This document shows, one piece after another, positions 33,818 to 36,330 of a stretch of DNA of 39,123 nucleotides. The notes under the pieces were generated by a model. That model was not told the origin of the DNA, made no database searches, and was given only the letters and a program-made list of their open reading frames with translations. Source of the DNA: Candidatus Dormiibacterota bacterium (lineage in GTDB: Bacteria; Chloroflexota; Dormibacteria; Dormibacterales; Dormibacteraceae); NCBI GenBank assembly GCA_003151935.1, contig PLYZ01000020.1:1-39123 (forward strand), written 5' to 3'. A program made the translations under genes and the position numbers. Numbering within the stretch: the first letter of the stretch is position 1; every line of letters begins with the position of its first letter.

Positions 33818-34342
33818 TTGATATCGACCCGAATCCTGGCGCGACGCCGCCTGAGCGTCTCAGGCGCGCAGCACGCACCCGCCCCGCGGCGCAGGCGGCG
33901 CACGCGCGGCTTCATGCAGGTTGCGAGCGCGACCGCGGCCGAAAGGCTGCATCTGAGCTCGTTCGGTCACGCCTACCTCGGCCTCGGCGCGGTGCTGATC
34001 GTCGTGCTGTTCTACCTCGGCATCGCCGCCCAGATCACGCAGTCCTCGTACGACATCGCGCGCCTCCAGGACCAGCAACGCCAGCTCCTCGCCGAGCAGG
34101 ACCAGCTCCGGTATCAGGAGGTGACGCTGCACGCTCCAGCGCAGGTCCAGCAGCAGGCGGCGCAGAGCGGCATGCAGCGCGTCGTGCCTTCGGGCTACGT
34201 CAGCGGCCAGCCGGTCGCGATCGACCTCACCGCACCCGTCGGCGCCACCGCCGGTGACTCCACGCCTCTGTGGGCGCGAGCCGTCGCGGCGGTGATCAAC
34301 ACCGTTGGCGGCACGCGCGACGTGCTGGCGGCGACCAGGTAG
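33818..34342 (+). CDS. ftsL: FtsL-like septum-formation initiator protein
   Basis: The TTG at 33818 is weakly supported; a later ATG at 33914 (MQVASATA) is possible. The product has a basic N-terminus, one transmembrane helix (YLGLGAVLIVVLFYLGIAAQI) and a coiled coil (ITQSSYDIARLQDQQRQLLAEQDQLRYQEV) leading into a low-complexity tail. This matches FtsL/DivIC-type division proteins by topology and by location between rsmH and ftsI. The stop codon TAG is made from the TA target of a mobile element plus its first G; without it the stop would be TAA. Confidence 0.75.
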   Translation: MISTRILARRRLSVSGAQHAPAPRRRRRTRGFMQVASATAAERLHLSSFGHAYLGLGAVLIVVLFYLGIAAQITQSSYDIARLQDQQRQLLAEQDQLRYQEVTLHAPAQVQQQAAQSGMQRVVPSGYVSGQPVAIDLTAPVGATAGDSTPLWARAVAAVINTVGGTRDVLAATR

Positions 34343-34575
34343 TGTCCCGGCCCCCGAGTTCCTTGGATCTTCGCGGCCTAGACGGGCGGGCGCCGACTCA
34401 CCCCACGAAATCTGGCGATTTCGCGGGGACCCCGAGAAGGGCGCTGAAGCCGGCGTCGAGGGGCCTGGCGCTGCGTCGTCACGCATCAACGGATGCGCTC
34501 CTCCTGGCGCCACACTCTCCTTGGCTCCGCCCGTCGATGCCGCGAAATATCCGGCGGAACTCGGGGTCGGGACAC
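34342..34575. mobile_element. MITE-like element with ~48-bp inverted repeats and TA target duplication
   Basis: The element begins GTGTCCCGGCCCCCGAGTTC and ends with the near-complement GAACTCGGGGTCGGGACAC. The terminal repeats (34342-34389 and 34527-34575) agree at about 40 of 48 positions by eye. It is flanked by TA on both sides (34340-34341 and 34576-34577). A central hairpin (34401-34428) lies inside. It has no transposase. Removing it gives AGG TAA GTG, a direct ftsL stop/ftsI start junction. Confidence 0.85.
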
Positions 34576-34578
34576 TAA

Positions 34579-36330
34579 GTGTCGCTCGGGGTCCGCGGAA
34601 GGGCCCCGCGTTTGGAGCACGTCGGTTCAACGCGCCTCCGCATCCTCGCAATGGTTGTGGTGGCGCTGGTCCTGGCCGGGATGGTCTGGTCGCGCCTCGC
34701 CTACTGGCAGGTCGCGCGCCACGGCCAGCTCGCCATGCAGGCCCAGGCGCAGTACCGCGAGGTCGTCGACCTGCCCGCCGTCCGCGGAGCCATCTTCGAC
34801 CGCAACCTCACGCAGCTGGTCGTCAACACGACCGTGTACTCGGCCTTCGTCTCCCCGGACCAGGTGCCTTCGGCCTGGCGCCAACGTGTGACCAGCGCTC
34901 TTGTCTCCGTCCTCGGCGCCGATCAGACCACCGTGACCACAATCCTCGCGTCCCCCGCCAAGTTCGCGTACATCTCTCCGCGCCGCTTCACAAAGGAGAA
35001 GGCCGACAAGCTGACGGCGCTCCAGCTGCCCGGGGTGGGCCTCGAGCCTGAGACGCAGCGCTCCTACCTTCCCGGCATCGGCGCCGGCACGACCCTGGCC
35101 GCGAACCTGCTTGGCTTCGTCAACTACAGCGGCGATGGCCAGTACGGCCTGGAGGCTTATTACCAGAAAGCTCTGGCCGGGACCCCCGGATACATCTCGA
35201 GCTATCGCGATCTGGCCAACCGAGAGATCGTGCTCGGCTCGCATACCCACCAGGACCCGGTCAACGGCTCAGACCTCGTGCTTTCGCTCGACGCCAACAT
35301 CCAGTACGCGGCCGAGCAGGCTCTGGCCGACGGCGTGAAGAAGGACAACGCCGAGAGTGGCAGCGTGCTGATCATGGACCCGACCACGGGCGGAATCATC
35401 GCGTCGGCGGATTACCCGAGCTATAACGCCAACGACTTCACCCACACTGATCCGGCGCTCTTCAAGGACAACGTCTCGAGCTACGTCTACGAGCCAGGGT
35501 CTGTGATGAAAGTCGCCACGCTGGCTGGGGCCATCAACTCAGGGGCGATCACACCCAGCACGGTGATCAACGACCCCGGATACCTGAACGTGGGCGGCTA
35601 CCGGATCTACGACTGGGATCGCAAGAACCACGGCAACATCACCTACAACTACGTCCTTCAGGACTCGCTCAACGTGGGCGCGATGAAGGCGATGCTGGCG
35701 GAGGGCCACGACGCCTTCTACAGCTACCTGCAGGGCTTCGGTCTGACGAAGGCAAGTGGGATCGACGTGGCCGGCGAGACGACCGTGCCGCCGCCGCCGG
35801 CCGCACAGATGGCCGATGCGCAGTACGCCACCGCCTCGTTCGGCCAGGGCATCGACGTCAACATGGTGCAGATGCTCGCGGCGGTCAACGTGATCGCCAA
35901 CGGCGGAAAGTACGCGCCGCCACACGTGGTGGACAGGGTCGGCACGGCGATCAACCCGCTACTGCTCCAGCCGCAGCGCCAGGTGATCAGCCCGAGCGCC
36001 GCTGCGCAGATGACCGCGATGATGGAAAACGTCGTGCAGCACGGCTCGGGATTCACTTCGCGGGTGAAGGGCTTCGAGCTAGACCAGACCGGCAAGACCG
36101 GCACGTCGCAGATCCCGGTCAACGGGCAGTACACGCAGGACGTGTGGGCATCGTTCGTTGGCTTCCTGCCGGCGCAGAATCCGAAGTTCACGATGCTGGT
36201 CGTCGTGCGCAAGCCCCACGCCGCCGGCAGCAGCAGCGACTGGACGCTGAACGACGGCTACATCACCGCCGGGCCGATCTGGCAGAAGATCGCCCAGGCC
36301 ACGGTCGTGGACTGGCACATAACGCCGTAA
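34579..36330 (+). CDS. ftsI: Peptidoglycan transpeptidase FtsI (PBP2/3-type)
   Basis: The 583-residue protein has a short cytosolic segment and one transmembrane helix (residues about 17-36, LRILAMVVVALVLAGMVW), a dimerisation domain beginning with VVDLPAVRGAIFDRN, and a transpeptidase domain. The active-site motifs are S308 in PGSVMK, S363 in DSLN and K506 in KTGTSQ. It cross-links septal peptidoglycan. No PASTA domains follow. The GTG at 34579 is right after the mobile element. The native Shine-Dalgarno, if within ftsL, would now be displaced by 234 bp. Confidence 0.94.
   Translation: MSLGVRGRAPRLEHVGSTRLRILAMVVVALVLAGMVWSRLAYWQVARHGQLAMQAQAQYREVVDLPAVRGAIFDRNLTQLVVNTTVYSAFVSPDQVPSAWRQRVTSALVSVLGADQTTVTTILASPAKFAYISPRRFTKEKADKLTALQLPGVGLEPETQRSYLPGIGAGTTLAANLLGFVNYSGDGQYGLEAYYQKALAGTPGYISSYRDLANREIVLGSHTHQDPVNGSDLVLSLDANIQYAAEQALADGVKKDNAESGSVLIMDPTTGGIIASADYPSYNANDFTHTDPALFKDNVSSYVYEPGSVMKVATLAGAINSGAITPSTVINDPGYLNVGGYRIYDWDRKNHGNITYNYVLQDSLNVGAMKAMLAEGHDAFYSYLQGFGLTKASGIDVAGETTVPPPPAAQMADAQYATASFGQGIDVNMVQMLAAVNVIANGGKYAPPHVVDRVGTAINPLLLQPQRQVISPSAAAQMTAMMENVVQHGSGFTSRVKGFELDQTGKTGTSQIPVNGQYTQDVWASFVGFLPAQNPKFTMLVVVRKPHAAGSSSDWTLNDGYITAGPIWQKIAQATVVDWHITP

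Follow-up and report, generated by a model that had tools for sequence, protein, structure and literature searches.

The 238-bp sequence between ftsL and ftsI in a soil Candidatus Dormiibacterota bacterium (GCA_003151935.1, contig PLYZ01000020.1) is probably a non-autonomous small mobile element, belonging to a MITE-like family of Candidatus Dormibacterota in which a folded single strand is conserved. The family is repetitive, mobile, folded and asymmetric between its strands. The main point missed by the initial annotation of this DNA is that the terminal inverted repeats form the foot of a long, branched fold; it also passed over the compensatory changes in these repeats, the bias in strand and orientation, and the nesting of a second repeat. 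In what follows ‘the window’ is the whole stretch analysed, 39,123 nt of the contig; its features are collected in Table 1.

The initial annotation placed the element correctly, with the stop codon of ftsL on one side and the start codon of ftsI on the other. Two TA dinucleotides bound 234 bp running from GTG to CAC (34342-34575). BLAST reports 51-bp terminal inverted repeats with an 83% match between the two ends, and alignment of the ends gives 43 identities in 52 columns (score 31; the best of 2,000 shuffles reached 16), bearing out an earlier estimate by eye of about 40 matches over some 48 bp. Coding capacity is lacking, as had been claimed: no open reading frame of at least 60 aa is confined to the element. 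A consensus scan found no promoter or intrinsic terminator within it. Short, without a protein of its own, ending in inverted repeats, flanked by a target-site duplication and present as dispersed copies at polymorphic sites, the element has the properties of a MITE.

Table 1. Features of the element and its flanking genes (window positions)
Feature	Position	Strand	Basis or remark
ftsL	33818-34342	+	Stop TAG overlaps element edge; FtsL models 6.1e-12, below cut-off
Whole element, both TA edges included	34340-34577	- (best-conserved fold strand, antisense to ftsL-ftsI)	Covariance model; copies elsewhere
Left TA, target duplication	34340-34341		With the element's first G forms the ftsL stop TAG
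Left terminal arm: outer stem P1 and stems P2/P3	34340-34389	+	83% match to right-arm reverse complement; helices 1-3 covary across copies
Side hairpin P4 (GCGCC..GGCGC), nested insert in loop	34390-34444	+	100% paired in 36 copies; C-G/G-C exchange in 9
45-base insert in P4 loop	34395-34439		Absent from most copies, e.g. G000:C91
35-nt hairpin CACCCCACGAAATC..GATTTCGCGGGGACCCC, its own dispersed repeat family	34399-34434		Copies outside the element, 91-100% identity
Apical hairpin P8 (CGCATC..GATGCG on plus)	34482-34497	-	Covaries; at another locus, orthologous copies differ by a C-G to T-A double change
Right terminal arm	34527-34577	-	Arm match and covariation
Right TA	34576-34577		Followed by one extra A, then ftsI GTG at 34579
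ftsI (PBP transpeptidase)	34579-36330	+	GTG start; N-terminus collinear with G002

The window's own genome holds one near-full copy at 85% and many partial copies, and matches to the element were found in 25 of 31 genomes searched. In a census with a covariance model, copies occurred in 37 of the 42 genomes of the taxonomic family and in 10 of 68 other genomes of the class (47 of 110 for the class as a whole). A strict core pattern applied to 84,980 species matched 35 stretches, all from entries titled Candidatus Dormi(i)bacterota, Ca. Dormiibacter or soil ‘Chloroflexi bacterium’ MAGs, some of the latter being relatives of the window. The viral contigs searched with this pattern gave no match, and viral carriage of the element was rejected on that ground.

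Comparison with orthologous empty sites reveals clean TA duplications at rplR-rpsE (copy L036, empty in G006), L052, L111 and L003. The clearest is rplR-rpsE, where TTC TA GAAA has become TTC TA[GTG..CAC]TA GAAA. Both the multi-copy, mobile character and the TA duplication that had been proposed from the single ftsL-ftsI copy are thus supported at other loci. TA is not the sole target, however, since the empty fabG-accD junction reads TGATG; G010 and G096 have the element there, and other congeners lack it. Edges read TA..TA in 31 of 98 copies, so two-thirds are without a plain TA..TA, and the next classes, GA..TC and CA..TG, are also complementary.

Several observations bear on how copies change. 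The G000 copy L002 (G000:C69) has one flank from each of the G002 copies L030 and L053, which suggests chromosome rearrangement through recombination between element copies. A subfamily (L061, L086, L087, L094, L111, L021) has the same or similar arms around a replaced central domain (GAGCACGTGAGGGAG..), suggesting exchange between copies. G028 carries a second family (L309-L326) of about 179 bp with different ends (AGCCCGGATCC..), in some 30 copies, which appears to share the apical motif (GCGCATC..GATGCGTGAC). The internal hairpin described by the initial annotation is real, but it belongs to a dispersed repeat of its own that lies nested in one loop of the element. This 35-nt hairpin is scattered through Dormibacterota genomes, other families of the class included (L007, L013, L043, L044, L218); in L218 a 90-bp tandem duplication (915-1039) contains two copies of it.

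At the ftsL-ftsI junction itself, the reading of the ftsL stop as target TA plus the first G of the element holds. An empty site also exists in relatives, as had been deduced, but its sequence in the close relatives G001, G002 and G005 (the first two of the window's genus) is TAGTG, a stop and start overlapping by one base, and not the predicted TAAGTG. Simple duplication of TA at a TAGTG target would give one A fewer than the window junction holds; an ancestral TAAGTG junction is possible, though none was seen in these three relatives. Because the junction is empty in the genus-mates G001 and G002, the insertion appears to postdate the split of the window lineage from them. Against mobility, the initial annotation had envisaged a sequence conserved here in all relatives. 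The genus-mates depart from that pattern, but G003 and G011, of two other genera, do carry an element at the same junction. Their subfamilies differ, and with three occupied genera holding different subfamilies and the window's genus-mates empty, a single ancestral insertion was rejected. Copies L061 and L064 have similar arms and so are possibly related to each other. On a rough estimate, each genome has about 20 copies and harmless sites are limited in number, so a junction that is used more than once does not call for a special explanation. The fabG-accD junction is likewise occupied in two genera by different subfamilies (L097 in G010, L122 in G016).

The course of events at ftsL-ftsI would then be as follows. 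After the split from G001 and G002 the element, moved in trans by an enzyme whose existence we infer, would have inserted at the TA of the ftsL stop codon and duplicated it; its first G would have regenerated the stop as TAG, leaving ftsL and ftsI both intact.

The fold comprises one long stem (P1-P3), the side hairpin P4 and an inner arm (P5-P8). In the alignment of copies the outer arms vary from copy to copy yet pair inside each copy, and the ends are among the most variable parts of the element while still complementary; the core and internal loops, including inner loop sequences, are conserved. A covariation search with no preset structure ranks the stems top, above the column-shuffle maximum; this search and manual stems replaced a structure-free alifold run, which gave a poor consensus on the first alignment. 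In the 68-pair model 42 pairs change on both sides, with 203 such cells against 51 after shuffling and 38-53 in slid controls, counted on an alignment built without structure and with a significance inflated by kinship among copies. Folding of single strands relative to shuffles gives z of -10.6 for minus and -8.6 for plus. Rfam gave no match to the element above gathering score or noise, and known RNA families were rejected as its identity. Since the copies have a folded shape in common and vary in their end sequences, the comparison suggests that the fold, and not the end sequence, is what is kept. The two arms would pair as the basal stem of a long fold that has a single side hairpin, their complementarity maintained as their sequence drifts.

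Wobble asymmetry and covariance-model scores point to the minus strand, antisense to ftsL-ftsI, as the conserved single strand. On the plus strand (the ftsL-ftsI orientation), in an alignment not fitted to structure, A.C outnumbers G.U by 71 to 35, a count that leaves out three end pairs almost always A.C; these A.C cells read as G.U on the minus strand. With 98 copies fitted to the model, the minus strand has 465 G.U against 88 A.C, although fitting itself favours G.U. The covariance model scores the window at 183.8 bits on minus and 46.7 on plus. What is conserved would accordingly be a folded minus strand, whether as RNA or as single-stranded DNA.

Two orthologous pairs bear on selection in place. 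The copy shared by G000 and G002 is 97% identical, against 88-92% in its coding flanks (p = 0.002), and its stem changes are one C-G to T-A double change, one change to G.U and one repaired mismatch. The fabG-accD copies of G010 and G096 are 91% identical against 83% in the flanks (p = 0.03), but here the stem changes mostly weaken pairs (three to G.U, three to A.C, four other mismatches). Some copies are thus likely to be under constraint where they stand, but this does not hold generally.

Copies lie inside operons, at rplR-rpsE, pntA-pntB, fabG-accD and ftsL-ftsI. Between tandem gene pairs, as called by a simple codon-usage gene finder, the folded strand is antisense in 41 cases and sense in 15 (p = 7e-4, a significance inflated by kinship of copies); for genes reading into copies the figures are 50 and 20. 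In 35 of 70 genes reading in, the stop lies at the element edge and is mostly TAG, which an open reading frame reading in can meet by chance in one of three frames. TA is scarce in the window, with 634 occurrences against 1,247 predicted by base composition (about half), and 10 of the roughly 630 are located in stops. The first base of the element is G, so that an insertion into the TA of either TAA or TAG restores TAG and is silent for the upstream gene, which accounts for the survival of copies in stop codons; a true target preference for stop codons is also possible. Copies would thus persist mostly at harmless places, namely stop codons and the stop/start junctions of operons, and the excess of antisense over sense orientation of the folded strand relative to host genes probably reflects a greater disturbance of operon transcripts by sense insertions.

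The initial annotation took the TA duplication to indicate IS630/Tc1-type mobilisation and suggested looking for an IS630-type transposase with matching ends. None was found. The DDE_3 (IS630) transposase has 0 matches in the window genome, a MAG rated 99.6% complete in which assembly loss is possible; it occurs in 3 of 20 genomes searched, and most copy-rich relatives are without it. ISAzo13-type transposase is also absent from the window genome. In G006 an IS630 (L220, G006:C34) lies exactly at the TA edge of one copy, but its own ends, CCTGTACCAG, are unrelated to the element. No end-matching autonomous element was found among DDE_3 and ISAzo13 matches (the two families searched) or among end-only matches, and the latter, considered as a possible autonomous parent among the partial copies, are variant or deletion-derived copies. 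IS630 and ISAzo13 were rejected as the source, given their absence from the window genome and the other ends of the lone adjacent IS630.

It is nonetheless conceivable, if unlikely, that the family is a plain IS630/Tc1-type MITE whose arms are recognised by sequence, whose transposase has been lost or left unassembled and whose fold is incidental. Pneumococcal RUP is mobilised in this way (PMC2229807), TA duplications occur at several loci, and the recent G028 copies have one common end sequence with TA edges. The distribution of DDE_3 and the different ends of the G006 IS630 argue against it, as do ends that rank among the most variable parts and yet stay complementary. Such complementarity could instead arise by mutation and not by selection. 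Template switching at quasi-palindromes, a process known for bacterial hairpins, copies one arm onto the other, and copies within one genome do have individually different but matched arms. It does not predict the strand asymmetry in wobble pairs or the conserved inner loop sequences, and stems inside the branched core covary too, so we consider it a doubtful account of the arms.

Two further explanations give the fold a role as RNA. Adoption by the host as an inter-cistronic RNA that tunes operon transcripts, like ERIC and NEMIS, would fit the copies within operons, their orientation bias, the slower change than flanks in both orthologous pairs and the orientation-dependent effects of ERIC (PMC2229807). 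But sites are mostly not common to relatives, and the better-conserved strand is the untranscribed one in most operons, which makes adoption very unlikely. A mobile non-coding RNA gene, its minus-strand RNA transcribed and active in its own spread, would explain strand-specific wobble, the conserved core and internal loops and the apparent retention of the apical motif in the diverged G028 family with its other ends; with no Rfam match and no promoter-like site by consensus scan, it is quite unlikely. A bolder reading is a selfish mobile non-coding RNA element, in which the minus-strand fold, as RNA or single-stranded DNA, serves as transposition substrate or guide and the ends are read by shape and complementarity and not by sequence. 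We regard this as speculative; if true, the ends of each copy would be free to drift while staying paired.

Small repeats that insert at TA, among them ERIC, RUP and Correia, are a known kind (PMC2229807, PMC3049150). Enterobacterial ERIC/IRU (~127 bp) resembles the element as a small non-coding repeat with TA ends in transcribed intergenic regions, and it yields a long stem-loop transcript with an orientation-dependent effect (PMC2229807). It belongs to a different phylum, has a 7-bp inverted repeat against about 50 bp here and differs by description; in the present element, unlike ERIC, the arms covary and copies sit in stop codons. RUP of Streptococcus pneumoniae (107 bp) shares the TA target, the folding, the paired ends and the lack of autonomy, but its ends match IS630-Spn1 (PMC2229807), and no such partner was found here. 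Pneumococcal repeats are described as preferring sites downstream of CDSs to the gaps that separate cotranscribed genes (PMC3049150), whereas operon junctions are frequent for the element. Correia/NEMIS of Neisseria likewise has inverted repeats, TA ends and a stable stem-loop RNA (here a predicted fold), which acts on neighbouring transcripts (PMC2229807); its inverted repeat is 24 bp, and sequence and host are different. Pneumococcal BOX is similar in its modular small repeats with a conserved fold within transcripts (PMC3049150), but is built of boxA, boxB and boxC modules, whereas the element has one core with an optional nested hairpin. Set apart by description from ERIC, RUP and Correia, the family appears to be new in the literature searched, as do its covarying ends and strand bias.

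With this large and apparently undescribed family, a phylum of which few members have been cultured gains a small and widespread mobile element. Its insertion into stop codons of core operons, rplR-rpsE and ftsL-ftsI among them, leaves both genes unbroken. Recognition by a sequence-specific transposase predicts conserved end repeats, and here they covary instead, so the family offers a case for testing whether transposon ends can rely on structure in place of sequence. The natural insertions are also a ready set for measuring the effect of a large hairpin between two coupled genes.
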